64,000 nt of DNA from contig JAJEKV010000040.1 in the NCBI GenBank assembly GCA_021234155.1, forward strand, positions 11,241,072-11,305,071, given 5' to 3'. Within the stretch, counting starts at the first letter, position 1. Each line of letters starts with the position of its first letter. Below the pieces are notes generated by a model. It searched no databases. It was not told where the DNA came from and saw nothing but the letters and a program-made list of their open reading frames with translations. Origin of the DNA: Isoetes taiwanensis (taxonomy: Eukaryota > Streptophyta > Lycopodiopsida > Isoetales > Isoetaceae). The position numbers and the translations under genes are program-made. Of the stretch, positions 25,735-64,000 are shown piece by piece.

Positions 25735-27075
25735 TACATCATCAAAGAGGACCTGCGTTATTGGTCCTCTGGTATTTCATATTCAATGAACAATTCATCA
25801 CCAATACACAAAGTTTTTATAACAAAACCATGATATATCTCCCGTCAATTTTACGGCTAAAAATCTTCTTGGTCTTTGTTTGCCTCGACAAAGATTCACA
25901 ATTGGTAACCGAAGTTCACCGATAGAGCTATTAATAAGCGACAGGTTTCCATGCAGGCGAGGGCGACCATCAGCATATGTAGGAAACTGGCGTAGTCCAG
26001 CGGGCTTGGATATTGTTAGGTGCATTTGAATTTAGGCCATAGATGAGCATGCTTGATGCTTACTCAATTTATGCCAAATTATGCAGGGTTATATTGGGAC
26101 CATATGGCATTAAAGGGCGGTGGCATTACCATCTTTGACTTTCACGCTAAGTCATAATATATAATCGAGGCCGTACTTAGGGACCCGACTATTTTTAATC
26201 ATGTCTTTGCCTACCCCAATATATGAGAATTGCTCCCCATAAATAATTGGCTTGCCTCTGGGCCATGCATTGAATTTCTTCACGATACTTTATGTCACAG
26301 CCAAAGGGTTGGACCAAATGGACTGAGTGAAGGTGGAAGATTATTTTCTTAGGTATGATCTAGTACATTCCAATTTTTGATGAACATTGTCATTCCTCAA
26401 TCTTGGCAAGCGGCCATTTACACGGCGAGTTCTATCCGTAATGGGATACTCTTTGAGGGAAGTTGATGGCTTTCTTTTTGTAGGAGTTTTTCTATGAGCG
26501 CATTCATAGTATCGACATCATCTACTTTGTGACAACATAACCCCAAAGAATCTATATCGCCCGAGCTCACTTCATTCTCAATTTCTTCCTAACAAAATGC
26601 AAACAGAAACTAAGTTAAGTGGGTTTGGGTAGAGTAGTTGATTATGATTCATAAGATTAGGTGTATTATACCTGCGTTGGAATACCCCACATGTCGTCGA
26701 AACCTTTGGATTTGTCGGGCATTATTCACGTATTTCTCAACATGAGTGGGGGCAGTCTTTCTCATCAGTTTTATTTGTCCTTTGCGCATCGAACAATTTG
26801 CAATATAGCAAGCTCTGTCAGAGTACAACTGCAAAAAGTAACATCAAGATACTCAAGTTAACTAAATCATTCGAAACATGTTTTATGGGTACACATACAT
26901 GTGGCATTCATTTCATTTTTACACCACCGGCCTCTAGGAAGACTAGGTCCACTTGGAGTACAATTATGGACTATTTGTGGCAATTGTTGGGGTAACATTC
27001 TTCGCCATGTAACTTTCTCAAAGCTACACATCTCACTTCAACGTTTCGAAATTTCCTTGACGTTAGATCCATGTT
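25735..27075 (-). pseudogene. SET-domain-like CACTA gene, broken copy (unit A)
   Basis: This is the counterpart of 51660-53018. Exon 3 (about 25735-26600) encodes the SET-like end. The segment matching GNL..INSS lies near 25915-25950 and the GDELFIEYE segment near 25780-25805. Exon 2 (26649-26834) keeps the Cys-rich element. Exon 1 lies near 26900-27075. Frames are broken, but in places this copy keeps codons that unit B lost, for example the Gly-Asn-Leu step. Comparing the two copies is what reveals the SET-like pattern. Confidence 0.5.
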
Positions 27076-27079
27076 GTTT

Positions 27080-28310: not shown

Positions 28311-28321
28311 GCATTGGATGT

Positions 28322-28343
28322 AGGGTTAGGGTTAGGGTTAGGG
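28322..28343 (+). repeat. Telomere-like TTAGGG run (unit A)
   Basis: Three to four tandem TTAGGG units, identical in unit B at 54263-54284. This is the vertebrate/Asparagales-type hexamer, not the usual plant TTTAGGG. Confidence 0.7.
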
Positions 28344-28379
28344 TTTTTATTTGGCAAAAAAATTCCTGCAGTATTGTGG

Positions 28380-29040: not shown

Positions 29041-29044
29041 TCCT

Positions 29045-35220: not shown

Positions 35221-35223
35221 ATT

Positions 35224-35235
35224 TGGTATCGGATC
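35224..35235 (+). other. Primer-binding site of unit B
   Basis: TGGTATCGGATC here, where the other two units have TGGTATCAGATC. The single difference is CAG versus CGG. tRNA-iMet type. Confidence 0.7.
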
Positions 35236-36067: not shown

Positions 36068-36520
36068 TTTCTTGCAATAATCTTCTCAAACCTCAGTCTA
36101 ACATTGACCATTGGATCTCATATACATTTACTACATGTCATTAGTTCCTTTACTTGACCAATTTTGCTTGCATGCATTTTGTTTACCACCTTGGCATATT
36201 TTGAGCCTAGGTGGCATGTTTGAAACCACCTTGCATGTTTGAGACACCTTAGCATGTTGGAGCCTAAGTGGCATTTTGGAGCCTAAGTGGCAATAATCTT
36301 CTCAAACCTTAGTCTAACATTGACCCATATGCATTTACTACATGCCATTAGTTCCTTTACTTGACCAATTTTGCTTGCATGCATTTTCTTTACCACCTTG
36401 GCATATTTGAGCCTAGGTGGCATGTCTGAAACCACCTTGGTATGTTTGAGCCACCTTGGCATGTTTGAGACACCTTTTGTCATTTTTTTTTTTGCCATAC
36501 TTTCTTGAATCACGGTCTAG
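36068..36520 (+). repeat. Two-copy tandem repeat of about 216 bp (unit B)
   Basis: CAATAATCTTCTCAAACCT occurs near 36075 and 36291. The CACCTTGGCAT sub-motif recurs inside each copy. Confidence 0.75.
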
Positions 36521-36923
36521 AACTACATCAACAAATATGTATCTATTATTTCCTCGATATCTTTCACATTAGATGTTTGTTGTTCTCATACTTAAATTAA
36601 GCCTACCTCTTTTCGTTTATGCATAACCTCCATCTTTAAGATAAATTTGCTTTGCATTATACTCAAACAAATCAGATGTCGGGCCCAATAGAAACAAAGA
36701 GCAAAAGCAAGAGCTGATTTAAAACAATGGTTCCATGCCAATCGCCAAATAAAAAGCAAAAAGTAATACTTGATTTAGTCCTTAGAACTAAATCTTGCCC
36801 TAATATTTTACATCCTAACCTCTTGGGGCCTTTAAAAGCTCCGGTGCTTTCAGTTCAAGCTCGATTAAAGGGAGCTTTTGGTTTTGATATTTTGATGGAA
36901 AATCTAAGAGTTTGATATTTTTA

Positions 36924-37174
36924 ATGGAAAATCCAAGAGGAAGCAGTGATAGCTTTGAAAGATCCATTTGATATTACGCCACATGTTCATGCAGCGTAAA
37001 AAAGAAGATGCGGGCACAACTTTGCCATATGCAAGTATTGTTAGTTTGGCTAACGAATTAATAGTGCAAATGGATGCTATACAATCAATTCAACCTATTG
37101 ATATTGCAATTTTACTGATATTGCATTTTTCTAAAGAATGCATGACACCCATTTCTTGGCAAATGATGTTATAA
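36924..37174 (+). CDS. Small conserved hypothetical frame, one lesion (unit B)
   Basis: An ATG at 36924 opens a frame matching the one at 62961 and closes at TAA 37172-37174 after Met-Met-Leu. The two copies agree except near 37000, between the codons for HVHA and EDAG, where each has a different small indel (GCAGCGT plus six A here, GCACG plus nine A in unit C). That pattern suggests the original was open for about 84 codons. The product would be short, with a hydrophobic stretch in its second half. Its place downstream of the LTR could fit a leader or gag-derived peptide, but I recognise no family. Confidence 0.3.
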
Positions 37175-38683
37175 TAATTGCCACAAAAACACAAAGACAT
37201 AGTTGCTAGTTGTACCTAGTCTACTTACATCAGTTAGTAGTACTAAGAATTGACTAGTCTACTCATAGCAAGTTAGGAGTAGTGTATGCTGATAAAGTAA
37301 AAAATGTGAAAGTCAAACACCTAACCTCTATATAAACATGAACCCTGATCATGCGTTATGGCTAAAGCTTGTATTATGGCTTTTTGGCCATTGGATTGCG
37401 ACACATGTGGGAGCATATTCCTTCCCCATAAATCCAGGGCCCAAAAGCAGGCCTTTTGCGAGGTCAAACTTCGTGCTGTTGACCCGACTATGAGGGGGAC
37501 ATTATTAAAGCAAAGACCATTACATAAAAGCGGTATTTTCAACTGTGTCTGATGCAATGAGGAAAACAAGAAGGCCAATTATTGCATGGCAATACTCTAT
37601 GAGCAAGAACATGAACACCATGATGGAATGACTAGAGCTTGGGGAATCGAACCCCGGATAAATCCAATGCCCATGCCTTACACCGCATGCCACATTAGGA
37701 CTATGCATAGGAGCCATCGAGCATGCCATTCACTCGACTCAAGCTCCGGTTGCCAATGGCATGGATTCGATGATCCTATGCGTGTTTTTTTTTTTTCGTT
37801 TTTGGAAGCCAACAAAGGCGATTAGTTAGTGAGCTTGGGAATTGAACCGCTAGCGCAATGCCAATGCTCATCCAGAGCATAAGGGAGATCCGGTGTAGGG
37901 GGTCTCCCCTTATGCCCGAGGAGCAAAGCCCTCTTCAAGCCCTCTGAGATGTTAGTAAAGGAAATGAAATGGACAAAGCATGTGCAAGACATAGCATAAA
38001 GCAGCAAAACATCACATATTCATCACAGGCTCAGAGAATGTACATGTGGCATGGAGCCACGCATATGAAACTGCACAAACAAGAACATTTCAAACACAAT
38101 GGAAAACAACAACGCCTAGTTCATGGGCTGTCCAGATGTAGCTCCCCTGATCACAGCATCAAGCTGCTGGATTTCCTGCGTCAACAAGCACCTGGCCAAG
38201 CTCATGTGAGACCTCAAAGCCTGCAATTCAGATAACGGAGCACCAAGTTGCTCCCAGGCAACACTGGACATAGCGGAATCGACCGCCACATAAAAGCCAG
38301 TCAGCTGCCTCCTGAGGATCCTAAGAGAAGCAGCTATTCGATGAGGGGTCCAAAAATGCTAGACCCTAGCAATTTGTTATTAGTGTACATGCAAAAAAAT
38401 AAAGGCATTCAATAATTAGAAAACTTACATAAATAAAGAAATAAAGAAATAAAAAAAAAAAACAAAAAGACGATTCACATTGAAAAGATCATTGACATTA
38501 AAACTATTTACATTGTTAATTAAAAAGAACTATATATTGACATGTAAAAAATGAAAATAAAAAAAAAAAAGAACATAAAAAGAAGGGGCCTCGTCTTTCA
38601 ACGACGTCCCCTTCTTGTAATAAAAAATAGAGGAAGAATGGGCCTCGTCTTTCAACGACGTCCTTCTTCCATGGAAAAAAAAT
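37175..38683. other. Unit B leader between small frame and GAA tract
   Basis: AT-rich sequence shared with units A and C. It holds the tRNA-like B box at 37643 and a degenerate one near 37840. No gene is supported. The last 100 bases contain two TCTTTCAACGACG motifs (about 38596 and 38651). Confidence 0.4.
37643..37653 (-). promoter_or_regulatory. tRNA-like box B (unit B)
   Basis: The minus strand reads GGTTCGATTCC within a T-arm-like stem. It is conserved in units A and C. No full tRNA fold is visible. Confidence 0.35.
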
Positions 38684-38858
38684 AGAAGAGGAAGAAGAAG
38701 AGGAGGAGGAGGAAGAAGAAGAAGAAGAAGAAGAAGAAGAAGAAGAAGAAGAAGAAGAAGAAGAAGAAGAAGAAGAAGAAGAAGAAGAAGAAGAAGAAGA
38801 AGAAGAAGAAGAAGAAGAAGAAGAAGAAGAAGAAGAAGAAGAAGAAGAAGAAGAAGAA
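38684..38858 (+). repeat. Uninterrupted GAA trinucleotide tract (unit B)
   Basis: More than 50 GAA units. The corresponding tract in unit A is split by the 6.2-kb insertion. The long poly-Phe frame on the minus strand is an artefact of the repeat. Confidence 0.95.
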
Positions 38859-38859
38859 A

Positions 38860-39295
38860 AGATAGGAGAAAGAAAGATTGAATAGAATGAGAAAGTGGTG
38901 AAGAAGAAGAAGAAGAAAATGAATAGAAGATTGAAGAACGGAAGATTTAGAAGGAAGAAACCAATATTTGGAGATCATTTGAAGAAGGGAGGAGGATTCG
39001 ATTCATACTAATAAGAGGCGAAATGGATTGAAGAAAAACAAGGATGGAAAGAAGAGGAGGATAGAAATGGGATGGATTGAAAACAAACAAGAAAAAACAA
39101 GAAGCCCTAAATCTATCAAACAACAAGCCTAATTCAAAAATAGAGTTGATTGATCCATTGAAATACCTTTGGATGCTTGCTTGAAGCTTGGAAAGGACCG
39201 CAAGGATGATCCAGCGCCAAAAATCGCACGAAAAGCGCTCCTCGGCCCGCTTAGAACCAAAAACTAGGCGGCGGAAAAGCCTACTCTGTTTTACG
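38860..39295. other. Purine-rich spacer (unit B)
   Basis: AG-rich sequence, then a short mixed stretch. I looked here for the left CACTA terminus (CACTACAAG) and for reverse transcriptase coding and found neither. Confidence 0.4.
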
Positions 39296-45830: not shown

Positions 45831-46223
45831 TTGGAAGATTTGGAAGATGCAGTTGACTTCAAGCCACAAAGAAACATAAATTTAGTGGCTGCTTCTATCA
45901 GTAAGGTTGGAGAAAAAATCCAAGCTGACAATCCATCACAAACTTCTAAGAATGTGCATTTGAAAGATTTAGAACATGGAAGTGTCCCATTTGTAAGAGC
46001 TACAGGAGAGTCCAAACCACAAATAATCTCGAGAGCTGGTTCTACCAGTCCAAGTCGAAATGTCGCAGAAACCTCAGGCTCCGAAATGGCAAATCGAACT
46101 GAAGAAGGCGATATCCAACAGAAGAATGCAAAATATCTTCAAGAATCCTTCAGATCATGTTCATGCATATGTATCAATGCTAGATTGTACCCAAGAGAAA
46201 ATATAACAATGTACAAAACATAG
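45810..46223 (+). CDS. Ser/Asn-rich reading frame of unknown function
   Basis: A frame of 137 codons is open directly after the satellite. It encodes a polar, Glu/Asp- and Ser-rich protein without a visible domain. It contains short strings such as DLEHGSVPF and SGSEMANRTEEGD. Codon use looks protein-like, unlike the satellite frames. Its start is arbitrary because the preceding codons are satellite, so it may be an internal or last exon. It ends facing the minus-strand third CACTA gene, giving a convergent layout. The copy at 19815-20190 is broken. It could be another captured host exon. Confidence 0.35.
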   Translation: MRGNRADLEDLEDAVDFKPQRNINLVAASISKVGEKIQADNPSQTSKNVHLKDLEHGSVPFVRATGESKPQIISRAGSTSPSRNVAETSGSEMANRTEEGDIQQKNAKYLQESFRSCSCICINARLYPRENITMYKT

Positions 46224-46800
46224 GTTTATTGAACAAAAGATCACTTGAACAATTCAAAGATACTCCTCCCGAGCTTGGCTTATAGTTTCTATCGTGAAGT
46301 CCTCCACTTGTCCATCCCCTTTGAACCATAGCTCCATGTCAAGTATGTGCCGCATCAGCCATGCACATGTCGACGCTAGTATCATGTTAATCTTTGTTTT
46401 TTCCTGTGGTGCTTCCAAACCCCGACCATCTTTTCAAGAAGCACCCTCATCATGCTAGGCGTGACTCAATTTGGTTCCTAGCAATTTGGTCGATGCCTTC
46501 TCACCAATCACATACTTCTTTAACACTTTCATCCGATGGATCGTTGTTTCATAGTCCTCATCTTGAAAGTGGAGGGGGGGTTCACAGGAGGATTCCCTTC
46601 CTTCTCATGCCCTCGGCGGCTCCTACACCAAGCTATAGATTAGAAAATAGATAAAATACAATAAAGTGTATAAACTACTGAGTGTAGCCTTACTTGTGAA
46701 GACAGGTTCCATATCTCTACGCTCTTGAATCCTCATCTCCTCCTGAATCTGGTTCAAGCGTCGAAGCATACCTTCCATGGCCATGTATCCCAAAAGCAAT
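46220..46800 (-). pseudogene. Third CACTA gene (TnpA position), unit B
   Basis: Two minus-strand pieces are seen. The upstream one (about 46800-46690) encodes MAMEGMLRRLNQIQEEMR..., a short helical, coiled-coil-like stretch. It ends near a donor-like ACAAGTAAGG and is followed by T-rich DNA and a CTATAG acceptor-like site. The downstream piece (about 46590-46220) encodes the region that stays open in unit A at 20188-20487, but it has a TAG and shifts here. The position on the same strand downstream of the transposase matches the accessory gene of En/Spm elements. There is no direct domain evidence. Confidence 0.35.
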
Positions 46801-46917
46801 AAAGAAAAAACTCTCACAATAACCGCAATGAAAACTAGGATCCGAGGATCGATTCGTAATACTCAAATCATAAAAGAAATGGGAAAAATGAAAGCTACCC
46901 GATGACTTTTAAAGAAG

Positions 46918-47030
46918 TAGACGTCGTTTAAAGGCGTGTATAGAGCGTCGTTCAACGACGTTTAAAGGTCGATTTAACGGCGTCTATAACGACGTTTCGG
47001 CTATAACGACGTCGTCATTTAAATTTGTTT
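46918..47030. repeat. CGTCGTT/AACGACG motif cluster upstream of the plus-strand cargo gene
   Basis: At least six AACGACG, AACGGCG or CGTCGTT elements lie within 110 bases, several arranged as inverted pairs. The cluster ends about 25 bases before the TATA box at 47057. The same motif family marks both outer arms of the CACTA element. Confidence 0.6.
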
Positions 47031-47056
47031 TGTTTTTAGGTATCTTTGAGATGCCA

Positions 47057-47063
47057 TATATAT
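47057..47063 (+). promoter_or_regulatory. TATA box of plus-strand cargo gene (unit B)
   Basis: CCATATATATTGCC is followed by a CT-rich leader (CTCCAGCTTCTCCGCC...) typical of plant transcription starts, with an ATG 106 bases further on. Conserved in unit A. Confidence 0.5.
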
Positions 47064-47168
47064 TGCCCTATTAGTCCTCCAGCTTCTCCGCCGCCCTCCG
47101 TCCTCTGCTCCTGCGCCCTCCAGCTTCCTCCTCCTCCTCCTTCCGTCGACTCCTCACCTACATACGCC

Positions 47169-47681
47169 ATGGTCGCTTCCGATGCATGCCCGCTTGATAC
47201 CGCACGAGTGCCGTCTGCGGTATTTGCTGGAGCACTCGAACCGCCTCGATCCGAAAAGTGGCTAGAGACGAACCTAACCCAAGAAAGGCCGGAGTTCAAG
47301 CAAGCCATGACAAAGCTGCGTGATAGGGGGCAAGAAAGACCTCGCCGCGTGCTGGGAGGCGGAACCTTCCCTCAATCTGGGCTCGAGTGCACAAGAAGAA
47401 ATGCATGGTGAGCTCGTTGTGCTTGGCCCGTATGCTAGAGGATGATAGGGGCCTTTGGGAAGGGAAACATTTCTTTGAAGCCCTACTTTCAAAAGTTGCA
47501 CCGCACCAAACCGGGGCATGCGGGAAGTGCTCATTACATGAATTCCTTGGGGAAATGCAGACCACCACGGGAGGGCTTGGATTCCATGCCGGGAGGCTTG
47601 TTCTCGACGGGTGGAGGAAATCACCGCCGAGCACCTTCGAACCTGAAAGTGGATCACACCGATGCTGATATATACCACTAG
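47169..47681 (+). pseudogene. Unidentified plus-strand cargo gene with own promoter (unit B)
   Basis: The ATG lies in strong context (GCCATGG). The frame reads through Lys-Trp-Leu-Glu-Thr-Asn-Leu and then shifts at least twice. The final frame (47442-47681) ends Asp-Ala-Asp-Ile-Tyr-His-stop, the same last codons as in unit A. The conserved start, leader, TATA box and stop suggest one gene of about 170 codons. I recognise no domain. It is oriented against the transposase genes, so it is probably cargo and not a core transposition gene. The minus-strand frames at 47274-47762 are likely shadows. Confidence 0.4.
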
Positions 47682-48400
47682 ATGTGCACCGCATCCACTT
47701 TGTTTTGTGTATTTGAATTGTGTATGGGTTTTATATGAATTTTGTATTTTGAAGGAATACATATATGATTTTTGTATATGAATCTTGCATTTTGAAGGGA
47801 ATCTTCACATTTTATGATTAATTAAACATAAAGCGTGTACTAACCTGTATGTAGAACTGCCCTGATCGGCGCTTGCAAGCCATAGGTCTATACTAGGATG
47901 CCAATTAACTTGGCATAAATGTCTATGATAACTTCGAAGTTGCAATACTAATGTTGCCTAAATTCGCATGCCAAAGTATTTTCTTATTCATATGTGGGAA
48001 GAAAATATAATAATCATAATAAAGTAATGAAGGTTCAATCGATGGTAGTCTTCTATCATGACAATAATAGTCTGCCCCAACCCCCAACCTCCCTATTAGA
48101 GCCGCCATCTCTTCTTCACCTTCAAATATGCGGCGGAGGCGAGCCTTTACATGGAACTACGAACCACCACTGATCTTGCAAAGGATCTGGAACGAAGGTG
48201 ACCTACAAAACCTCTATTACATTAGTTCCTTTGTTAATGACATATATAAATTTTATTGCATCCAAGTAAACATACTTGTTCACATTGCTCAACCCTCACG
48301 AGTGTGTCTTGACCACGATCTGGGAAGCGAAGTTGAATCTAGTGAATACAGGCCACTCGGATCTTTTGCGTATCGTGGCATGAGCACCAATACACACAAG
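47682..48400. other. Spacer 3' of the transposase gene (unit B)
   Basis: AT-rich sequence between convergent genes. It includes a minus-strand frame at 47923-48108 and a plus-strand one at 48128-48433, neither kept in unit A. Nothing else is recognised. Confidence 0.35.
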
Positions 48401-48401
48401 A

Positions 48402-48600
48402 TCAAACCATTGCATCAAACAACATTGTTTTGAATGCACTACCGACATCAACCTCCATGATAGTCTTTATAGTACCAATCCATTCCAACATTGCCTCGAT
48501 TGGGTTTGGGTCTGCACTACCAGTCTGGCAAACTGTACTAAACTTTGCTGATATACCACAATCATAAGTGCGTTTGCCATGATCCACACTTTGTCGTCGA
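48402..48600 (-). pseudogene. DUF4216-like C-terminal piece of the transposase (unit B)
   Basis: The minus-strand frame encodes a segment reading WIGTIKTIMEVDVG followed by AFKTMLFDAM. This resembles the beta-strand pattern of DUF4216, a domain often found at the C-terminal end of plant CACTA transposases. A frame break follows at the expected Trp-Phe-Asp. The assignment rests on pattern memory only. Confidence 0.35.
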
Positions 48601-48700
48601 AAGTGAGCACGTAGAAACCATATTGATGCATATGAATTATACTACAAAGTAAAGGAACAAATGTTCAAAATAACGAACGAAACTCGTGAATTATATGCTA

Positions 48701-49396
48701 TTAAGTTGCACTTACAAATAGTGACACGCCTTTAGCATATGCAAATTCTTCGCTAGAAACATGTTCGCCACGTTGCCTTGCTATCTCTAGTTGTTCGAGC
48801 AGCCATTTATTGTTTATCTCACTTGGCAGGACCCCTAGATGAGCAGGAAGTGGTTGTTTGCGATTCTTTTGTCGATAGCGTCTTCTCTCCTCATCTCTCT
48901 TTATTTTTTCTTCCTCGTATTTTTTTATCCATTTCTCCATGGGAGTGGAGTTGTAGATGAGAAACTTATTGACTTTTGCCTGTTCTTCTAGTGTGAACAA
49001 TTTCTTCTGTGGTCTTCCTTCGGGAACTTCTCCAATTATAGTTGGAGTGTCTTCATCGGTCCATAATCGTGGAGCATTGGGGTGTAGATCGGCCAAGAAC
49101 TCGGTGACATAGAATAATGACTCTCGTGCTAACCAACCCTCGCCATGCAACCCTCCGGCCTTGCCTTCTTCTGCATTTAAGTCCTTGAGGGACCTTCGTA
49201 AAGCGTTCTATAAAAACATCCATCTAGGATTTGTTGTGCCTGCAAGCTCTACTTCGTCCACTAAATGCACTAGTAAGTGAGTTTGTATGTCCAGAAAACT
49301 TGTTGGGAATTCTTTCTCTAGCATACAACATGCCTCAACGACCTTAGTTCGCATGTCCGCAATTTCATTTGGGGTATCTCCTTCCTTGTAATCCAT
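48701..49396 (-). pseudogene. CACTA transposase, DUF4218 end and basic extension (unit B)
   Basis: The upstream piece (49396-49208) encodes CCMLEKEFPTSFLDIQTHLL, then VHLVDEVEL and PRWMF, the core of DUF4218, which follows the Tnp2 domain in plant En/Spm transposases. The downstream piece (49150-48701, 149 codons) encodes a charged helical segment with runs of Lys, Glu and Arg. A short break near 49150-49208 separates them. Together they form the C-terminal half of the element's transposase. DUF4218 is widespread in land-plant CACTA elements; its exact role is not known. Confidence 0.75.
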
Positions 49397-49453
49397 CTAC
49401 ATATCATTAAGAAAGAAAAAAGTTAAGTGAGAGTTCAAGATCGAAAGTGTTTT

Positions 49454-50960
49454 CTAAACCGCTGAACCTCGAAAACTCGATGGGAGACATATTGCATGTA
49501 GTGGACCGTCATGCAGAGGCGACCCTCGAACAATAGGCATAACAAACCGCAACATCTTATGCCAATCATGAGATTTCAACCCGCTTAACTCTCCTTCGTT
49601 AGAGAAACAATTACGCAACGAATGCATATATCTGTCGGAGTCTTTATTGCCTTGATCGCTTCTCGAGCGGGTTTCATACATTTTTTCTAGGCACGATCCA
49701 ATCCACTTGTGGCCTTATTCCTTCTTCGACATTTAACCATGCTTTAGATTTTTGATCCAACTTCTTGTAGATCTTCTCGTCTTTGCATCTGTGTCCACGT
49801 CCGGTGACATGCTTCCAAATAGGACGAAACGTTTTTAAAGATGTGCATGGGATCAAGAAGATGATGGATCTTCAATTCTGGCCCAATAGGGTAGAAGGAA
49901 GAAGGATGCTTTCCATTTCATTCCCTTAACCTTATTTCCTTCAACGGCATCCCACATGTTACCCCAATCTCTCATTGTCAACCTTTTGGGAGGCTCTTGA
50001 AGGCAATGTTTTTCTCTTGGACCTACGTGACGGGAAGTCGATTTTCCATTGGCGAGATATCTCTTGAAGTTTGCATAGACATTTTTTGTGCAATGCCGTT
50101 GACCGTGAGAGTTCAACTGTTCAAACCCACACAAGTGACATGCCGCATATCCCAGACACTTGGAGTCCGAGAGTTCATACAAACCGGGCCAATCGCCGTT
50201 GTCCACATTAAGATTGCTCTCAAGGTAAATCTTCGTTCAAGACGAAGTTCTCTTGAGACATCAGAACTTCAATACCTTCACTCCACAATGTCAAAAAGCT
50301 CATCAATAACTATTTTCAGATATGGATCTAGACTTTCCGGCTTCTTGGTCCTGAACTAATAGTACTACCATTAAATGGCTAGTCTTCATGAGTAAACCAC
50401 GGTGGTAAATTATAGTTGATCAACACTATCGCCAAGTTGACCACGCGGCTGATTGACGCCCATAAGGATTAACACCATCGGTTTGCCAACCCTAATCTCG
50501 AGATTTCGTGGCTCTCTTCCAAATTTCGCCATGTTTCATCAATATGCTTCCATTGCTTGCAGTCACTAACCACGCGGAGTACATTGTCACTGACGATTAT
50601 GCACACCAACCCATGAGCTTAAGCTAGAGATTCACATCAAACAATAGCCTTATGCGAGGGATCAATGGAAAGTAGCTTAACCACCTTCATCGGGGCGGTC
50701 TTTCCCTTGGCATCCTGCATTGTACCTAGAGGCACCACATTTAGGGGCATGTTTCGTGTTCTTGTAGATGTCATCCGGATAATATACCATGCAATCATTT
50801 GGACAAGCGTGAATCTTATGGTAGCCTAAACCCAAGAGCCGCCAATATATTTTTTTATTTCAAGGCGACTTTTTGGGCATAGTGTTCCCTTGTGGGAGTA
50901 TTTTCTCTTGCAATAACCTGTATAAAACAGACCTTTACGTATACATTCAACTACAAATTC
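49454..50960 (-). pseudogene. CACTA transposase, Tnp2 domain (unit B)
   Basis: Minus-strand frames encode, in order, a degenerate N-terminal half of Tnp2 (50960-50350), an open piece (50206-49853), and pieces at 49856-49674 and 49681-49454. The open piece carries ACHLCG, then HCTKNVYANFKRYL, PPKRLTMRDW and ASFFLLPYW; the last piece carries GLKSHDWHKML. These match the zinc-ribbon, fruiting-body-like and pre-DUF4218 parts of the Tnp2 family. The enzyme would cut at CACTA/TAGTG ends. Four or more frame breaks make this a pseudogene as read. Unit A repairs some of them and vice versa. Confidence 0.75.
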
Positions 50961-50986
50961 AATAAGTCAAGTGATTGCAATTGTAC

Positions 50987-51460
50987 TTACTCTAACAAAG
51001 CCGTAACACTGGCATTGCTCCATTTGAATTTGGCTTGAAGGTTTAATATCAATAAAGATGTCGTCAATCTAGATATGCTTGCACCTGGATATAATGCTTT
51101 ATGCGCCTCCTCCAATAAAACGTGATCTTCATGACCATCGTTAGGAGTATTTATATCGTCATCTAGGTCGTTGTCGAAGATTGGGCCAAATGCATCTAAC
51201 ATGTCGGCTATGGGTTCCTCAACTTCCATGAAGTCGTCCATAGGGGCATTGTCATCATCTTCATCATCGTATTCCTGTTCATCTTCATCATTGTACTCTT
51301 CATTATGCGTTGTGCCCATGTTTGTACCATACCGCTTCAATGTATTCTAATTTCGCTATCCGCAATGACTTTTGATGTCGCCAATTCAAGACGCTTTGAT
51401 GTGGTCTTATATCCACTTGCCTACCCCCACGTCCGGATTAAAACTAAATATATGCGTGAT
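50987..51460 (-). pseudogene. CACTA transposase, acidic N-terminal region (unit B)
   Basis: A minus-strand frame of 117 codons is rich in Asp and Glu (for example EYNDEDEQEYDDEDDD) and then reads LLEEAHKALYPGASISRL and FKWSNASVTALLE. In plant Tnp2 proteins an acidic stretch followed by a 'LYPG' and 'KWS' segment precedes the main domain. The upstream start is unclear. Codons before 51340 are shifted, and the unit A copy begins with an ATG at 25473. Confidence 0.65.
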
Positions 51461-51599
51461 TGATACATACATTGAGAGCCCGTGGTTTGTTAAATTTTAA
51501 GCATTTAATAAATCTAAGCTAAATATAAAATTTTATGTCATAATCAAAGCATATATTGAAGATATAATACACATTTATCTTCAATATGTGCAATCTCAT

Positions 51600-51645
51600 T
51601 CCAAGAGAAGAAGAAGAAGAATTCAAGAAGAAGAAGAAAAAATTG
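51600..51645 (+). repeat. Short GAA-rich tract between CACTA genes (unit B)
   Basis: About 40 bases of AAG/GAA repeats, also at 25660-25700 in unit A. It marks the gap between the SET-like gene and the transposase gene. Confidence 0.6.
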
Positions 51646-51659
51646 TGCATTTTGACAAA

Positions 51660-53018
51660 AATTATATGAGTAATTTGAGTACATCATCAAAGGACCTCCG
51701 TATTGGTCTACCGTATTCATATTCAATGAACAATTCATCACCAATACACAAAGTTTTTATAGCATAAACCATGATATATCTCCGCCAATTTTACGGCTAA
51801 AAAAAAATCTTCTTGGTCTTTGTTTGCCTCGACAAATTCACAATTGGTAGCTTCGTGGATTCTCGATAGAGCTATTAATAAAAGCAGCAAGGTTTCCATG
51901 CAACCGGAGGATCGACCATCAATATATGTGAAGCTTCATGAAGTCACCGGGCTTGGATATTGTTCGTGCATTTGAATTTAGGCCATAGATGAGCATGCGC
52001 CACTGATGCTTACTCAATTTATGCCAAGTGTCTGAGTTATATTCAGGACCTACATATGGCATTAAAGGAACGGTCGTACCATCTTTGACTTTCACACTAG
52101 TCATAATATATAATCCTGTGCCAAAGACCCAGGGGACCCGACTATTTTAATCATGTAACGCCTACCCCAATATGTAAATTGCTCCCCATAAATAATTGGC
52201 TTGCCTCTAGGCCATGCATTGAATTTCTTACGATCTTTATCCGTAGAAGGGTTGGACCAAATGGACTAGTGAAGGTGGAAGATTATTTTCTTGACATGAT
52301 CTAGTACATTCCAATTTTGATGAACATTGTCATTCCCTCCAATCTTGGCAACGGCCATTGCACGACGAGTTCTATCACGTAATGGGATACTCTTTGAGGA
52401 AGTTGATGGCTTTCTTTTTGTAGGGTTTTCTATGAACGCATTCATAGTATCAACATCATCTACTTCCAATGACAACATAACCCCAAAATCTATATACTGC
52501 TTCGAGCTCACTTCATTCTCAATTTCTTCCTAACAAAATACAAGCAAACTAAGTTAAGACATCGATTCAAGTACATGAGAGTAGTTGATTATCGTTCATA
52601 AGATTCGTATTATACCTCGTTGGAATACCCCACATGTGCGTCCGAGATAACCGGATTTGTTCCGGGCATTCACCATATTTCTCAACATGGTCGAGGACAG
52701 TCTTTCTCATCCGTTTTATTTGTCCTTTGCACATCGAACAATTGCAATATAACCGCTCTGTCAAGTACAACTGCAAAAAAAAAAAGTAACATCAAGATAT
52801 AAAGTTAACTAATCATTCGAAACATGTTTATGGTACATACATCGGCGGCATTCATTTCATGCACACCACCCCAGCCTCTAGGAAGACTAGGTCCACTGGG
52901 TCTAATTGGACTATTTGTGGCAATTGTTGGGGTAACATTCTTGCACAAAGTCGCCATGTAACTTTCTCAAAGCTTTTCGTCTCACTTTACGCTCAAATTC
53001 CTTCCGACGTTCGTCCAT
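51660..53018 (-). pseudogene. Three-exon gene with a SET-domain-like C-terminus (unit B)
   Basis: Leftward gene model: exon 1 53018-52841 (ATG; basic N-terminus, then a Ser/Pro linker), exon 2 52770-52616 (CNCSMCKGQIKR...HVEKYG, a Cys-rich element), exon 3 52529 to about 51660. Introns have GTATG/GTATA donors and T-rich AG acceptors. Near its end exon 3 encodes SKPGDFMKLHIYIDGR, then in the combined reading of both copies a Gly-Asn-Leu..Phe-Ile-Asn-Ser-Ser step, TNCEFVEAN, and AIKTLCIGDELFIEYEYG (51748-51706). Order and spacing fit the last half of a SET methyltransferase: the GN..R/AFINH, PNC and GEEL.xDYxY strands. Several frame breaks remain, and the His of NHS is replaced by Ser. SET enzymes methylate lysines, usually on histones. 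The gene lies directly upstream of the transposase on the same strand. It may be separate or the N-terminal part of one long transposase gene. Confidence 0.55.
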
Positions 53019-53019
53019 G

Positions 53020-54250
53020 TTGTTTTTCTAGTAAACAATAAAAAATATTAATAAAAACCATGTAATAATATAATAATTATAAATATCCATGTTTTTTCAT
53101 GATTTTATCAAATGTTTATTCTTAAGATTTGATTCATACAACGTTTATGATATTTAGAAAGCATTTGATTGAAGGGTGCCTCAACCCGATACATCTAGTC
53201 CCTCCATTTGAAATGGAGTCGCACCAAGCACTTTATATTCACGCAACCTTTCAAATCTTTTTTTTGTAATCTATGAAGATTGAAACTTCTGTTCGAGGTG
53301 CATAAACCCGATACATTTAGTCTTCTCCATTCGGGATGGAACCGACCAAGACTTTGATCATGCATCCCTCAAGTTTTTTAACATACTTTCAAGATTCAAT
53401 CTTCTAATCTATTAGCATTTAGAGGTGTTTAACTCTAACACAAAGATTAAAACAGAGATCTTACCTTATGAAGACCCACTCTAGCAAAAAATCCTAAAAC
53501 AAACGAAAGTGAAAATAACAAGTAATAACCCGGCCGCCCGGGTTCCGCCATATATGACGCCGTTTATCGACGCCGCGGTGACGCCGCTCAACGACGCCAA
53601 GCCGACGTCGCCCCGACACCTAGGCATGCCACATCAGCTTGCGCCCGCCCGATGCCCCCTCATATGCCACGCCGATGATCACGCCGCTTAACGACGCCAA
53701 TGATCATAACGCCGTTAAACGACTAACCGCGGATTGTTTAACATAACCGTAAAACAACATACAATACAAATAACACAAATAAATAAAAATAATCGATTGT
53801 TCCCATTCATAAAATAAGCTTATACAACGACAACACAAATAGATAAAAAAACTTATTGTTTCCATTCATAAAAAAAGCTTATACATTACTTATGTCCATC
53901 CTGAGGACGTGACGGTTTGATGCAACCATTTGCATCATTATTCCGCACCATTAATGTCGCTTTTCTCTTTGTTTGCCTCGGTGAGCCATTCTACCGCCGT
54001 TCCGCATGGAACGCCAGATGTTAGTGCAATCAGAAGCTCCTTTTCACTCATCTTTGCCACGATGGTGAAGGGAGGGTTCTCAGCGGGAGAAGCAGGGGGG
54101 TTGCTGGAGTTGTCTTCCCTTGAGGAGGAGGATTACCGCTAGAAGGAACATATCGCCAAGGTGGTCTTCAACCGCACGGACCATTATAGCAAGATAGGGA
54201 AGAACACTCAAAAAATAAGAATAACAAAATTTTATCGATGGATCCACTTA
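53020..54250. other. CACTA right arm, 5' region (unit B)
   Basis: AT-rich sequence with a patch of AACGACG/GACGCCG motifs at 53555-53720 and a small leftward frame at 53938-54051. It probably contains the promoter and leader of the leftward genes. A clear TATA box was not identified. Confidence 0.4.
53938..54051 (-). CDS. Small leftward frame, possible first exon of a CACTA gene
   Basis: A 37-codon frame starts MSEKELLIALTSGVPCGTAV and ends Asn-Gly-Ala-Glu-stop. The open reading continues upstream through codons for Asn-Pro-Pro-Phe-Thr-Ile-Val-Ala-Lys. In unit A the same start (MSEKEL) is present near 28110 but the frame breaks sooner. No family is recognised. Confidence 0.25.
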   Translation of the reverse strand: MSEKELLIALTSGVPCGTAVEWLTEANKEKSDINGAE

Positions 54251-54262
54251 TAACGTGGATGT

Positions 54263-54284
54263 AGGGTTAGGGTTAGGGTTAGGG
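54263..54284 (+). repeat. Telomere-like TTAGGG run (unit B)
   Basis: Tandem TTAGGG units followed by a poly-A run at about 54297-54316. Same position as in unit A. Confidence 0.7.
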
Positions 54285-54324
54285 TTTTTATTTGGCAAAA
54301 AAAAAAAAAAAAAAAAATTCCTCG

Positions 54325-54665
54325 CGGTGACGCCGCTTAACGACGTTGAGGCCGACGCGGTCCCGACACGCAGCAGCCGCCTTGGCACAAAGCACCATGC
54401 CACGCAGTGCACGCGGACACGCCGGCGTTGTGGCCAACGCCGTTCAACGGCGGCGACGCCGGGCGGCGTCTTGACACGCAGGCTGCCAGCTAGGCAACTG
54501 CCCATTTCCACGCATGACGCGGCCACACGTCAGCGCTGTGAAACGTCGTTGAACGACGTCGAAACGACGTTGTCGTCGTTGAACGACGATGTGGTCGATC
54601 AACGACGACGTTCCGACGTTCATCGACGACGCCTCGTCGTTGGACGTCGACGATCCCTTGTAGTG
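54325..54665. mobile_element. CACTA right subterminal repeats and terminus (unit B)
   Basis: About 330 bases are filled with CGTCGTTGAACGACG-type motifs in both orientations and end GGACGTCGACGATCCCTTGTAGTG. Read from the other side this is CACTACAAGG, the standard CACTA terminal inverted repeat start. The transposase genes read away from this end, so it is the 5' terminus of the element. The three bases after it (CAT) should match a target duplication at the left end, which I could not find. Confidence 0.8.
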
Positions 54666-54960
54666 CATTTTCTGTGTCCAACGCTTCCGTCACTACCTTT
54701 TGGGCAGTCAAATCAAGTTCTTTGTGGATCACCAAGCACTCCTTTATTTGATCAACAAGTCCACGCCACGGCCGCATTGCTCGTTGGGTCCTTCTTCCAA
54801 GAATTTGCTCCTTTTGAAATTGTTCATAAGGCGTGCAAATCTCATGTCGCCCCGGATTATCTTTCACGCATCCCACGGATGATCCCTCAACCGAGTCTCG
54901 GATGCCTTTCCCGATGCTCGGCTCTTTTTAGTCACGGCAACACCACATTGGTTCCATGAT
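54666..54960 (+). pseudogene. Ty3 RNase H domain remnant (unit B)
   Basis: Coding resumes right after the CACTA terminus with codons for VQRFRHYLLGSQIKFFVDHQ and then LLYLINK, the typical middle of Ty3 RNase H. After small shifts it continues with FAPFEIVHKACKSH and PDYLSRI at its end. The upstream part of RNase H and the reverse transcriptase should lie on the far side of the CACTA but are not recognisable there. The C-terminal '...YLSRI' motif joins to the integrase region. Confidence 0.75.
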
Positions 54961-54999
54961 TTTCAGCAGCACCTCCTCACAAAAGTGCTCTTCCACCGT

Positions 55000-56201
55000 A
55001 AGATGAGACGCCTCTCCCCGCCAGTTTAAAAAATCCTGCCGCTATCAATTTCTCCGAGAGGTCCGTGACTACACCATGGTTGCCGGACATCTCTACAAAA
55101 GGGTAAGGACACCATCCTTCGACTGGCTGTGTTCTACCTCATGAAGTTCCGGACATTGTTCGAGAAGCTCATCAAGGGCTCCGGTGGTGGTCATTTTCAT
55201 GGTGACACCACGGCACGACATAAAAAATCCTTCTTGCCCGTATTATTGGCCCACGCTTCAAAGATGCTCACGCCCACGCCCGCACGTGTGACGCTTGCCA
55301 GCGGGTGGGACGGCCCACGGCCCGTGACGCTCTTCCCTTGACGCCGGTTGCCACGCCACTTCCCTTCAGCAAATGGGGAATGGATTTTGTGGGACCCATC
55401 GATCCTCCCCGCCGCGGCACACCCGCGTCTTCGCTTACATTCGGGTTCTCACCGACCACGCTTACCAAATGGGCGGAAGCTTTGCGACTTCCAGACAACA
55501 CCGCGGCAAGCACAGCCAAGGTTATCTATCAACAAATCATCACGCTGATTCGCTGCCCTACCTGAAATGGGTCGCTGATCGGGGTGTTCACTTTATCAAT
55601 CATACCATCAAGGAGCTGACGGATTATCTCCTGATACATCATCACAAGAGCACACCTTACTATCCTCAAGGCAATGGGTTGGCAGAAAGCACCAACAAAA
55701 CTCTGGTCACCATTCTCAAGAAAATTTGTGACGCTTCCCATTGCATTGGCGGATAAAACTTCCATCGTTTTTTGGGCCTACAATACTTGTTTCAAGATTG
55801 CTACGGTCACACTCCTTTTAAATTGGTTTATGGTCGAAGCTCTCATGCCATTTGAATACATCCTTCCAACACTCCGTTTTCAATTGGCTACTGCTCATAA
55901 CCCACCAGCTGCTCTCAAAGAACGGGTCTATCAATTAGAACAGTTGGATGAACTTCGAAGGGATGCTTATATTCGTGTTCTTCATGGACAACAGTTGCAA
56001 AAATCTTTACATGACAAACGTTTGAAGACAAAAACATTCAAAGAAGGAGATTTGGTTCTTCTTTATGATTCCGTGTACAAAAAATTTTCCTGTAAACTCA
56101 AGTTTCGTTGGTTTGGCCCTTATCATATTGTTCAAGTGGTTAGACCAAGTGTCTTCCAACTAGCCGAAGTTAGATGGCACTCCATTACCTACATTGGTTA
56201 A
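55000..56201 (+). pseudogene. Ty3 integrase, frame-broken (unit B)
   Basis: Domains in order: an HHCC zinc-binding region (GHFHGD near 55190, TCDACQR near 55285), then the catalytic core with its first Asp in MDFVGPID (55381), second Asp in ADRGVHFINHT (55573) and Glu in YYPQGNGLAESTNK (55665-55690), and a C-terminal region with FRWFGPYHIVQVV (56105), the GPY/F module. All three catalytic positions are present. At least three frameshifts split the gene; the last 175 codons (55674-56201) form the longest open piece. No chromodomain is visible. Integrase inserts the cDNA into the host genome. The domain order RNase H then integrase defines Ty3 (Metaviridae-type) elements. Confidence 0.85.
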
Positions 56202-56214
56202 TGGTTTTCGCCTC

Positions 56215-57235
56215 AAAGCATTTCATCACACGTAAAGTGAACATCAACACACCGAGACAGCTTCAAGAATCAAACACCACGTAAAGTGACTAGAAAGGCG
56301 GTAGATTATATTATAGTGGAGATTTTTTTACAAAATGTGGGCGCAGCCCCGTTTATTTCCGCTCGGGCACCGCCCTATATACAAATACGCTCGTGAGCCC
56401 TATCTACTAAGTCCTAAGAGGAAAAACCCTCTACTCCGGTTTGGAGCCGAGGTGATGGGAGGAGGAGATGGTAGAGGTTCCGCCAGTGGTCCCAAGCCGG
56501 AAGGTGCAGAACCACCTCCATCCCGTTGGTCGAGGGTTGGGATGTTCAGCCATCCCGCACACCGGCCGCCCATGCTAATGCCACGGTTGTGGCAAATAGA
56601 GATCCGCATAATTCATCTTACAAGTGATCCACTCGACAGCGGTTGGTGGGCATAGTGCGCTTTTCGCTCAAACCAAAGAAGCCAGCCCATGCTCAGCGCC
56701 ATCGGATGTTCGCTTCACTCCCGTTCGCCTTATATAGCCAACCGAGGAACCGTTAGTCGACGTGGACCAATCAGAAATTTGCCAACGTGTTTGCAATGCA
56801 AGGCTCCTTCTAACTTGAGAATCTTTTCTCCCCGCCGCATATTTAGCCGTGGTACCTTCGACACATTCCTTTTAATGATATCCCACTTCGAAAGCTTGCC
56901 GATTCAATGCCCTTCCTTCTTTTTTCACGCCCGTCGAACATTAATATGTGTCCTTTGGCCACCTGTCACATCCCATCATTCTCTCACGCCCTAATCTCCA
57001 CCGTTCATTGCTTTCCCTTATGTTTTCGGGGACTTAGCCAAATTTTTGCCTCTCAACTCGCCTCCTTGGCATCTTTTCGACACTGCACCATCAAGCGGTT
57101 CGCCTTTTATCTTATGCCCCCTTCGCCCACCCCGCCGCCCTAAAACCTTTTTAGTTCCTCAAGGCTTTCGTCCTCCGTGACTTGGCTTTCGTCCTCCGCC
57201 TTTGAATCACTCTTTAATTTTGCACAATCGTTACC
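56215..57235. other. Spacer between integrase and extra gene (unit B)
   Basis: It contains the leftward promoter at 56731-56771. Downstream of it on the minus strand is a 69-codon frame (56609-56400) whose sequence is not kept in unit A. No domain is recognised on either strand. Confidence 0.4.
56731..56771 (-). promoter_or_regulatory. Leftward TATA/CCAAT promoter between pol and extra gene (unit B)
   Basis: On the minus strand the order is CTGATTGGTCCACGTCGAC, 29 bases, then GGCTATATAAGGCG, followed after about 30 bases by a plausible start region. This is textbook spacing for a plant Pol II promoter. It is conserved in unit A. It would produce RNA antisense to the integrase. Confidence 0.5.
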
Positions 57236-60213: not shown

Positions 60214-61175
60214 TGTTAGTCACCGTGCCTCCCGGTACAGGGACTATTCATGCATACGCCGAGACCAGGTCAAGCTCAAAGATCCTCGGTCAACCACGTC
60301 AGACATCCAAGCCTCCGCTAGAAGACTAAGCAGTGCCACGCGGTCAAAGCCTTTGGTCATCAACAAGAGGCGCCGCTCGGACAAGTGATGACCCGTCCCG
60401 CCGCCCGCGTCGGCGTCAAGATTTTTAGGCACTTCAAGAGGCACCGCCAACATTCCTCAGAATCAGGCCTCCTTCCGTGAGTCGGCACCGAGATCGCTTA
60501 GAGTGTCTATATTGGGCCCAAGGCCATTGTACTATATATATGAGTAGAGTTAGCTCATAAGTTTTAGATGAGTTTTGAGTCTTGTCTCTCTTGATCTCCT
60601 CTCTATTTCGAGAGCTCATGTATGTTCATCATTGATATCAAGGAAGCTTATCATTTTCCTCTCATTGTTCTCTTTTGTTCTGTTTTCTTCTTCTTGTTTT
60701 TCTCTTGCAAATCCCGCGTGACATAGTCCCCCGGATTCTCCTGTTAGATCCAAGGGTCCTCACAGAGGGCTGTCTTGCAGGAGTTCCCGAACCCAGACCC
60801 CAAACAATTATCTTAATGTTTGTTTTGCAGGTTAGGACAATGGTCGTTGGCCAAAAAGCTTGCCAATGGGGGTTCACTTTCTCTGATCCTTAGCTGCTTA
60901 GTAATGTATAGTTCTTTTGCAATCAAATGTTTATTCAAGTATTTGATGTAACCATTCAGATTCAATATAGCTATCACCATTTATGTTATGTATTGGTTAG
61001 TGGTGTTGCCAGTAAGGTAAGTTTAGATCACATTGGCAATTATTCTGTGCATCATTGAGGAGCATCGACTCGCACTCATAAACTACACCATTGAAGTGAA
61101 ATTGTCACCAGAAGGTTGTCTGAACCCCCTTCAATTTGCTGGCTAATTGTGGTGTGTAGGGATGAGATTTGATCA
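60214..61175 (+). mobile_element. Complete LTR shared by units B and C (962 bp)
   Basis: It begins TGTTAGTCACC and ends TTTGATCA. It is the 3' LTR of unit B and the 5' LTR of unit C. Compared with 34274-35220, differences concentrate in the GC-rich first 270 bases; the rest is almost identical. Confidence 0.85.
60533..60541 (+). promoter_or_regulatory. LTR TATA box (unit C)
   Basis: TATATATAT at LTR position about 320, conserved in all three LTRs. Confidence 0.65.
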
Positions 61176-61178
61176 ATT

Positions 61179-61190
61179 TGGTATCAGATC
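61179..61190 (+). other. Primer-binding site of unit C
   Basis: TGGTATCAGATC, identical to unit A and one base different from unit B. tRNA-iMet type. Confidence 0.75.
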
Positions 61191-62029
61191 TAAATTAAGC
61201 AGCTTGTAGGGCACATCCAGATATAATAAAAAATCATGTTTTGGCCTTGGGATCACAGATTTATAGACATTTCTTCCTTATGTTCACCATTTATGGGGCA
61301 CCCACCTTAGCTCTGTTTCCAAAAGGAGGCCTTTAATCTAGGCTCGATCTAGGGTGTTTCGATAAAAGTCTAGAATGGTCCATTCCTTATCCTTACGCTA
61401 AAGATTGTTTGCAGAGAAGATCTAAAAGGTACAAATCACTTCTAGCCAAATATTTGAGTGGATTGTAAAGGGAGAAGCACCGCTTGCAACCAAGTGTGTT
61501 TCCCCCTGATGTTATTGAGCCACATGTCTTGTATGGCGTCTATAAAGGTTTTGGGCAACCCATACAAGAAACTCACCTCCTTATCGTGACTGTGAAAGCC
61601 CCTGAGCACTCCCAATTCGTGGCTCAAATGTTGTATGGCTTCAATTGGCGATAAAATTCTTGCTCGATTGCCAGAGCTCAATTCAATTCTCCCTCTGTCG
61701 CTATGGCTTCGAACACATTATATTCCAAATGGAGCTCTATAGCACTAGGCATCAATATCTGGCATTAGAGAATATGGGAACTATGTTTTATCAGCAGTTA
61801 CCAAGAGAGTGTGTGCCCTTATGAGGAAGAAGAATGTGATGTTCCTACATCACATACGATGGCACGCCGCACATGTCATAACGGCCACACCTTTGAAAGG
61901 ACCGCCATCTGACTCGAACCTGGGATGATCAGGTAGGCGGGAGTGTTCATTTTGTCCCCATCCCCCCTCTAAGGTAACTATAACAACATATTTGTTTGTT
62001 CTTCTCTTTATTGGCCTTTACCCATTTTT
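61191..62029. other. Unit C leader, no supported gene
   Basis: The same sequence as 35236-36067. The minus-strand frame at 61442-61681 is nearly the same as that at 35486-35722, but this only reflects near identity of the DNA. Confidence 0.4.
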
Positions 62030-62460
62030 CTTGCAATAATCTTCTCAAACCTCAGTCTAACATTGACCATTGGATCTCATGTCTGTTACTACATGTCATT
62101 AGTTCCTTTACTTGACCAATTTTGCTTGCATGCATTTTGTTTACCACCTTGGCATATTTTGAGCCTAGGTGGCATGTTTGAGCCACCTTGCATGTTTGAG
62201 ACACCTTAGCATGTTGGAGCCTAAGTGGCATTTTGGAGCCTAAGTGGCAATAATCTTCTCAAACCTTAGTCTAACATTGACCCATGTCTGTTACTACATG
62301 CCATTAGTTCCTTTACTTGACCAATTTTGCTTGCATGCATTTTCTTTACCACCTTGGCATATTTGAGCCTAGGTGGCATGTCTGAGCCACCTTGGTATGT
62401 TTGAGCCACCTTGGCATGTTTGAGACACCTTTTGTCATTTCTTTTTTGCCATACTTTCTT
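62030..62460 (+). repeat. Two-copy tandem repeat of about 214 bp (unit C)
   Basis: CAATAATCTTCTCAAACCT occurs near 62034 and 62248, with CACCTTGGCAT sub-motifs as in the other units. Confidence 0.75.
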
Positions 62461-62960
62461 GAATCACGCCTAGAACTACATCAACAAATATGTATCTATT
62501 ATTTCCTCGATATCTTTCACATTAGATGTTTGTTGTTCTCATACTTAAGGGTCGCCTACCTTTTTTCGCTTGTCGCAACCTCCATCTTTAAGATAAATTT
62601 GCTTTTGCATTATACTCAAACAAATCAGATGTCCAGCCCAATAGAAACAAAGAGCAAAAAAGCAAGAGCTGATTTAAAAACAATGGTTCCATGCCAATCA
62701 AATAAAAAGCCAAATAAAAAGCAAAGAAGTAATACTTGATTTCTAAGGTTTTTGGTAATCAAGCCTTTTAGAATATGAAATCTTGCCCTAATATTTTACA
62801 TCCTAACCTTAAATCTATGTTTTTTTTTATAATAACCCATTGAATTGTTTTAGGATTGGTCTATGGCCTTTAAAAGCTCCAAGAACATCCGGATTCAAGC
62901 TCGATTAAGGGAGCTTTTGGTTTGATATTTTGATGGAAAATCTAAGAGTTTGATATTTTA
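62461..62960. other. Unit C leader with unit-specific inserts
   Basis: AT-rich. It contains about 35 extra bases near 62741 and about 60 extra bases near 62812-62870 relative to units A and B. No gene. Confidence 0.4.
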
Positions 62961-63214
62961 ATGGAAAATCCAAGAGGAAGCAAAGTGATAGCTTTGAAAG
63001 ATCCATTTGATATTACGCCACATGTTCATGCACGAAAAAAAAAGAAGATGCGGGCACAACTTTGCCATATGCAAGTATTGTTAGTTTGGCTAACGAATTA
63101 ATAGTGCAAATGGATGCTATACAATCAATTCAACCTATTGATATTGCAATTTTACTGATATTGCATTTTTCTAAAGAATGCATGACACCCATTTCTTGGC
63201 AAATGATGTTATAA
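62961..63214 (+). CDS. Small conserved hypothetical frame, one lesion (unit C)
   Basis: It starts ATGGAAAATCCAAGAGG (MENPRGSKVIALKDPFDITP) and, apart from a phase shift in the A run at 63035-63043, continues as EDAGTTLPYASIVSLANEL to a hydrophobic stretch and stop at 63214. Unit B carries a different lesion at the same spot. This supports a formerly open frame of about 84 codons. No family is recognised. Confidence 0.3.
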
Positions 63215-64000
63215 TAATTGCCACAAAAACACAAAGACATAGTTGCTAGTTGTACCTAGTCTACTTACATCAGTTAGTAGTACTAAGAATTGACTAGTCT
63301 ACTCATAGCAAGTTAGGAGTAGTGTATGCTGATAAAGTAAAAAATGTGAAAGTCAAACACCTAACCTCTATATAAACATGAACCCCGATCATGCTATGGC
63401 TAAAGCTTGTATTATGGCTTTTGGCCATTGATTGCAAAGACATGTGGGAGCATATTCCTTCCCCATAAATCCAGAGCCTCCAAACCGAAGCCTTTTTGCA
63501 GTGTCAAACTCGCGGCTCGCTGGACCCGACTATGAGGGGGACATTATTAAAGCAAAGACCATTACATAAAACAGTATTTTCACTGTAATACAGTACAGTA
63601 GGAAAACAAGAAGGCCAATTATTGCATGGCAATACTCTATGAGCAAAGAACATGAACACCATGATGGAATGACTAGAGCTTGGGGAATCGAACCCCAGAT
63701 AAATCCAATGCCCATGCCTTACCTGCATGCCACATTCGGACTATGCATAGGAGCCATCGAACGCATGCCATTCACTACGACTCCAAGCTCCAGTTGCCAA
63801 TGGCATGGATTCGATGATCCTATGCGTGGTTTTTTTTTTCGTTTTTTGGAAGCCAACAAAGACGATTAGTTAGTGAGCTTGGGGAATTGAACCGCAACGC
63901 AATGCCAATGCTCATCCGAGCATAAGGGAGATCCCGGTGTAGGGGGTCTCCCTTATGCCCAGGGGCCAAAGCCCTCTTGAAGCCCTACGATGTTAGTAAG
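63215..64000. other. Unit C leader to the window end
   Basis: Matches 37175-37960. It holds the tRNA-like B box at 63684 and a degenerate one near 63885. No gene is supported. Confidence 0.4.
63684..63694 (-). promoter_or_regulatory. tRNA-like box B (unit C)
   Basis: The minus strand reads GGTTCGATTCC within CTGGGGTTCGATTCCCCAAG, a perfect T-arm-like stem and loop. Confidence 0.35.

Follow-up and report, generated by a model that had tools for sequence, protein, structure and literature searches.

The window, by which we mean the whole 64,000-nucleotide stretch of Isoetes taiwanensis DNA analysed here (G000:C1046:11241072-11305071), holds a three-exon gene which lies directly upstream of a transposase within a CACTA element (Table 1). 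The sequence-only reading had described this leftward gene beside the transposase and we read the same three exons, with both of its junctions (52841/52770 and 52616/52529) reproduced and predicted to join in phase 0 in the open copy L016. None of the three exons is interrupted in L016, whose predicted spliced protein is 388 aa long. Exon 3 encodes 278 aa in open copies, approximately the last 140 residues of which form the SET domain, whilst the window copy of the gene carries several frameshifts, including in this exon. The further copy that had been reported in unit A is indeed present, and is the worst affected by differences between copies, its exon 3 differing from most copies at 112 of 811 positions with an additional 26 inserted bases.

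Much of the window consists of a repeated unit of ~26 kb (16285-37958 and 42205-63999; also 36-4444, 34541-38898 and 60498-63999), the copies of which are 82% identical over 22.7 kb and hold the CACTA element together with retrotransposon-like stretches.

Table 1 Features of the CACTA element and its SET gene in the window
Feature	Position	Strand	Remarks
Outer (5') end of CACTA element	54645..54665	minus	CACTACAAGGGATCGTCGACG reading inward from 54665; exact match
SET gene exon 1	52841..53018	minus	Transposase-associated-like/SET gene; donor GCCGAT/GTATGT; direct reading; open in L016
SET gene exon 2	52616..52770	minus	CxCxxCxG...H zinc-finger-like; resembles Transpos_assoc PF13963
SET gene exon 3 (SET exon)	52529 to ~51687	minus	PF00856 in open copies; window/L009 alignment
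First coding exon of transposase	50990..51425	minus	Phase-0 acceptor in relatives GTGCAG/GGTAGGCAAGTGGAT; window GGG vs CAG in clean copies
Transposase segment, TNP2 (PF02992)	49853..50236	minus	Window E = 6.4e-5, 22.7 bits, below cut-off of 28.6
Transposase C-terminal segment	48701..49207	minus	Homologous by reading to L019 DUF4218 segment
Unit A copy of SET gene	25735..27075	minus	More damaged than the copy at 51660-53018

The CACTA element and its transposase

The element end reads CACTACAAGGGATCGTCG from position 54665 on the minus strand. The same CACTACAAGG end was found in 15 of 20 fetched copies, each time with different 12-base flanks, and pairwise alignments of copies L009, L016 and L019 begin at this end. 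A 22-base pattern of the end matched the genome 410 times, against none for the same pattern written backward, and the relatives L053 and L050 possess terminal CACTA ends of their own (CACTACAAGGGATCACCG and CACTACTAGAGAATGG, respectively).

Downstream of the SET gene, relatives of the window element match TNP2 (PF02992) strongly (E = 1e-60 in L050, 4.4e-38 in the window-type copy L015, 4.6e-13 and 6.9e-37 in L052, and 3.6e-7 in L053), and the transposase is therefore TNP2, so that we rejected a Harbinger or mariner identity. DUF4218 was matched in L019 (L019:96-653, 3.8e-13), L050 (4.1e-27), L051 (3e-28, the only domain covered by the scan of this lineage) and L052 (1.3e-20), with no match in the scanned fragment of L053, nor in a Pfam scan of the C-terminal segment of the window transposase. 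In each of five sampled lineages, which share 47-99% identity with L016, exons for TNP2 and/or DUF4218 lie downstream of the SET exon, and the earlier proposal of a CACTA transposon with a SET-domain gene beside its transposase is borne out by these exons and by the shared element end. A 3' inverted end and target-site duplication were sought in 22.0 kb (L019) and 16.2 kb (L016) of joined sequence, and none was found.

Past the transposase, the window contains tandemly repeated DNA with periods of ~305 bases and 1.1 kb (at 14.0-19.8 kb and 42.2-45.8 kb). The downstream arrays of L016 and L019 align with it, and that of the diverged L051 is similar by reading of its frames; the array may belong to the 3' region of the element or be a satellite linked to it. 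Another frame on this side of the transposase (window 46240-46780, minus strand), small, conserved and without a Pfam match, also occurs at ~9.7 kb in the joined L016 stretch.

Copies, domain content and selection of the SET exon

We compared the window copies with one another (20010-30554 vs 46006-56483, plus exon 3 of 20 further copies). Differences per site were most frequent at CHG (0.148), compared with 0.072 at CG, 0.020 at A/T and 0.018 at CHH sites (22 rows), and close to CHG, at a distance of a few bases, the frequency of transversions was 11 times and that of indels 5-7 times the value elsewhere (21 rows, unit A excluded). Deamination of methylated cytosine yields transitions; since the excess here is of transversions and indels, the pattern suggests that the consensus of the long-read assembly contains errors at methylated CHG, and the broken frames of the window are therefore poor evidence of decay. 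Exon 3 was read from open copies only, with frames left unmended.

Such copies are numerous in the genome (1.66 Gb in 1110 contigs searched). A DNA search with positions 51660-53018 returned at least 40 copies at 91-100% identity (40 scored of 541 candidates), and in a protein search (139 of 1974 candidates scored) at least 16 of 153 matches were stop-free and spanned at least residues 8-275 of the 278, ranging from 48% to 100% identity; the intact copies which the sequence-only reading had proposed to look for thus exist. For alignment A1 we picked 11 exon-3 copies for open frames and divergence, namely nine of 16 short regions plus L009 and L016. It omits L034 (rearranged 5' part), L035 and L042 (frame-shifted stretches), as well as L038, L041, L045 and L047. 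Degenerate-pattern scans built from A1 gave seven pattern matches in viral contigs and 11 in prokaryote contigs, with no confirmed relative in either.

One further locus (L063/L070, G000:C1031:797949-798170) holds an open frame of 206 aa whose predicted product resembles that of the element SET gene by descent (PF00856, E = 1e-6), and no TNP2-like frame was noticed there within 9.2 kb. We read this as an orphan copy, or possibly a domesticated one.

Domain searches identify exon 3, by its predicted protein, as encoding a SET domain. For L016, the protein predicted from all three exons matches PF00856 across almost the entire model (1-104 of its 105 positions) with 28.6 bits, against a cut-off of 22.4 (E = 2e-6), the full spliced L043 protein matches positions 9-104 (E = 3.7e-7, 31 bits), and all 11 exon-3 proteins in A1 score above the curated cut-off, including relatives only 47-48% identical to L016. 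For the SET-like strand pattern that had been noticed at the end of the gene, the sequence-only reading had suggested a HMMER-type comparison and had named a missing SET match as one finding that would speak against it; this finding did not occur. An unbiased, genome-wide PF00856 search gave 72 matches, 18 of which coincide with element copies from the protein search. When the 11 A1 proteins and L063 were ranked against 2000 shuffles, a profile of nine host SET proteins placed 12 of 12 above the best shuffle, and a profile of five host proteins, which we take to be ATX/SUVH-type, placed 11 of 12, whilst a profile of four presumably SMYD-like host proteins placed none. Other searches were silent: phmmer against PDB sequences gave no matches, a PDB profile search gave no SET match (two aminotransferase sequences at E = 0.56), and the best NCBIfam match (0.014, to a cytochrome oxidase model) did not rise above noise. 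When three fungal SET domains were compared by hhalign, the result was weak (25% probability), and its local score of 22.9, the highest of 60 column shuffles being 22.5, is not independent support. The PDB and hhalign results are what a chance or weak resemblance to the SET domain would produce, but such a resemblance is extremely improbable and we rejected it in view of the PF00856 matches in every A1 protein and the ranking under the host profile; the genome-wide search, which recovered the element copies unprompted, speaks against it likewise.

Whether the protein would be an active enzyme is a separate matter. The motifs G-x-G, PYxGPE, HGNxAxFINSS, NC and GDELFIxYxY are invariant in A1. 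Aligned with the fungal SET domains, the serine of the FIN-S motif falls on the histidine of the NHS motif, a position occupied by serine in 11 of 11 proteins, whereas the asparagine and the YxY tyrosines do not vary; the assignment of these positions as catalytic residues is our assumption. Given the serine, the activity of the predicted protein may be weak or absent. The replaced histidine, and the lack of a post-SET cysteine motif after the domain, would both suit a protein that has lost catalysis and serves, bound to chromatin or to the transposase, as a reader or scaffold, an interpretation which we regard as rather unlikely, as the G-x-G, tyrosine and asparagine positions are all retained.

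Nei-Gojobori dN/dS was 0.21-0.30 in seven A1 pairs with dS of 0.19-1.46 and 0.25-0.35 in three close pairs, whilst three distant pairs had reached synonymous saturation (values for 13 of the 55 pairs, no significance test). Because the ratios between lineages are this low, we conclude that the SET protein is maintained by purifying selection across lineages. CACTA elements do take up host genes (PMC8616336), and a fragment passively captured in the manner of Pack-CACTA elements, with no function, would account for the presence of a SET exon. These ratios contradict it, as do the synonymous saturation between the main clades and the exon order and neighbouring transposase shared by five lineages, and we rejected passive capture as having almost no probability.

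The exon 2 domain and a proposed model of splicing

The best Pfam match of exon 2 was the Transposase-associated domain (Transpos_assoc, PF13963), two relatives of the window type giving E = 0.068 and 0.027 and the L043 lineage, at best, E = 5.3e-5 (23.7 bits; positions 29-61 of 74), with every one of these matches under the curated cut-off of 27.7. Exons 1 and 2 are likely homologous to this domain, judged from their predicted protein, as a degenerate version for which we do not claim formal membership. The sequence-only reading had named, as the finding that would speak against it, that the segment belongs to an unrelated CACTA domain; this applies to exons 1 and 2 only, in so far as they are Transposase-associated-like, and not to exon 3, where the SET assignment stands. 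The Transposase-associated domain is usually N-terminal in TNP2 transposases. Pfam scans of the lineages detected none on the transposase side.

In the relatives, the transposase frame opens at a phase-0 AG acceptor a short distance past the SET stop: TTGTAG/GATATTCGACCT in L050 (a gap of ~144 bases), ATTCAG/AGCGGTCTC in L051 (~157 bases) and GTGCAG/GGTAGGCAAG in L016 (~280 bases). The acceptor motif was located in 17 of 20 window-type copies, clean as CAG in nine and disturbed in the others, including the window, and all intron phases are 0. New here, by our reading of these frames, would be both the Transposase-associated-like exons 1-2 and the start of the transposase frame at a phase-0 acceptor just past the SET stop.

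Two arrangements other than alternative splicing have to be weighed against this layout. The SET gene and the transposase could be two separate genes, the former with its own promoter and the latter with its own downstream start, the SET protein then acting in trans as an accessory chromatin factor. Exon 3 is stop-terminated in 11 of 11 A1 copies, and in L051 the frame is open upstream of the acceptor with in-frame ATGs, so that a separate transposase start is possible in this lineage. In L050 and L016, however, a stop intervenes before any upstream ATG, and the conservation of the transposase frame up to the phase-0 acceptor, the gap of merely 144-280 bp and the missing Transposase-associated domain on the transposase side all argue against independent genes, which we hold to be unlikely.

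Alternatively, the stop could be removed by a splice donor late in exon 3, which would yield one SETMAR-like fusion protein in the order domain-SET-TNP2. A phase-0 GT does precede the SET stop closely in 8 of 11 A1 copies (GAG/GTCCTT and variants), but these sites match the donor consensus poorly, at 5 of 9 positions (a score shared by the real intron-2 donor), the final 60 bases of exon 3 contain no phase-0 GT in L043, L044 or L046, and the sole phase-0 GT common to all 11 copies would delete the final SET motif. We regard the fusion as very unlikely. Because a splice from the end of exon 3 to the transposase is thus improbable, we infer that exon 3 is best read as an alternative terminal exon, the gene giving rise to either a domain-SET or a domain-transposase product.

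Proposed role and relation to known elements

Taking these observations together, the reading we favour, and consider reasonably probable, is of an autonomous-type CACTA (EnSpm) lineage with a long-kept SET exon, shared exons 1-2 and a SET protein that acts on the element itself. Under this proposal, a CACTA lineage would have gained the SET exon and retained it over a long time. Exons 1-2 would be common to both products: with exon 3 as terminal exon a domain-SET protein would be made, and with exon 3 skipped exon 2 would join the phase-0 transposase exon to encode a domain-TNP2 transposase. Through the shared N-terminal domain, the SET protein could be targeted to the ends of its own element or to the transposase complex and might methylate histones there (or the transposase), so that the element stays expressible or its activity is tuned, an accessory role such as TNPA has in maize Spm/En. 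The fullest form of this proposal, in which a single CACTA gene picks, via one terminal exon, a transposase or a SET methyltransferase with a common N-terminal targeting domain, so that the element could move and could also mark its own copies to evade or tune silencing, we put forward tentatively, as a possibility.

Plants silence transposons via histone and DNA methylation, and a histone-methyltransferase-like protein kept by selection across diverged lineages of a CACTA element would be either a direct counter-measure to silencing or a self-regulator, within a plant transposon superfamily that is among the best known. The question of whether transposons write histone marks on themselves becomes testable here, and the numerous open copies make expression and enzyme tests feasible.

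Plant CACTA/EnSpm elements such as Spm/En, Tam1 and Tgmt* share with this lineage the CACTA ends, a TNP2 plus DUF4218 transposase and an accessory product within the same element. Spm/En and soybean Tgmt* make two products via alternative splicing (tnpA and tnpD in Spm), TNPA being a DNA-binding protein (PMC2613891), and in CACTA elements generally the transposase is accompanied by a second frame whose function is unknown (PMC4158355). Unlike in Spm/En, Tam1 and Tgmt*, the accessory product here bears a SET domain. A search of the literature outside subscription journals and Repbase, on SET domains with CACTA, EnSpm, TNP2 or transposon-encoded methyltransferases, found no such plant CACTA, in agreement with the earlier statement that none was known.

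DNA transposons encoding a SET histone-methyltransferase-like protein have been reported among HarbingerS and MuDR elements (Repbase Reports, cited in PMC12730594). These belong to other transposase superfamilies and the examples named there are from oomycete hosts, whereas the present lineage is CACTA/TNP2 in a plant and its SET exon is flanked by a Transposase-associated-like exon on one side and by the TNP2 exons on the other. In SETMAR (Metnase), a SET methylase is joined to a transposase-derived DNA-targeting part which binds Hsmar1 ends (PMC6326780, PMC8327481). The comparison with SETMAR made in the sequence-only reading holds as an analogy but not in origin: SETMAR is a primate host SET gene fused to a domesticated mariner transposase (PMC6326780, PMC8327481), whilst the SET gene here lies inside the element and moves with it, as an internal, mobile counterpart to SETMAR. 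Finally, VANDAL proteins of the MuDR family act against their element's own epigenetic silencing, and although the account of them in the part of PMC12730594 that we cite mentions no SET domain, they are a possible functional analogue of the element SET protein.
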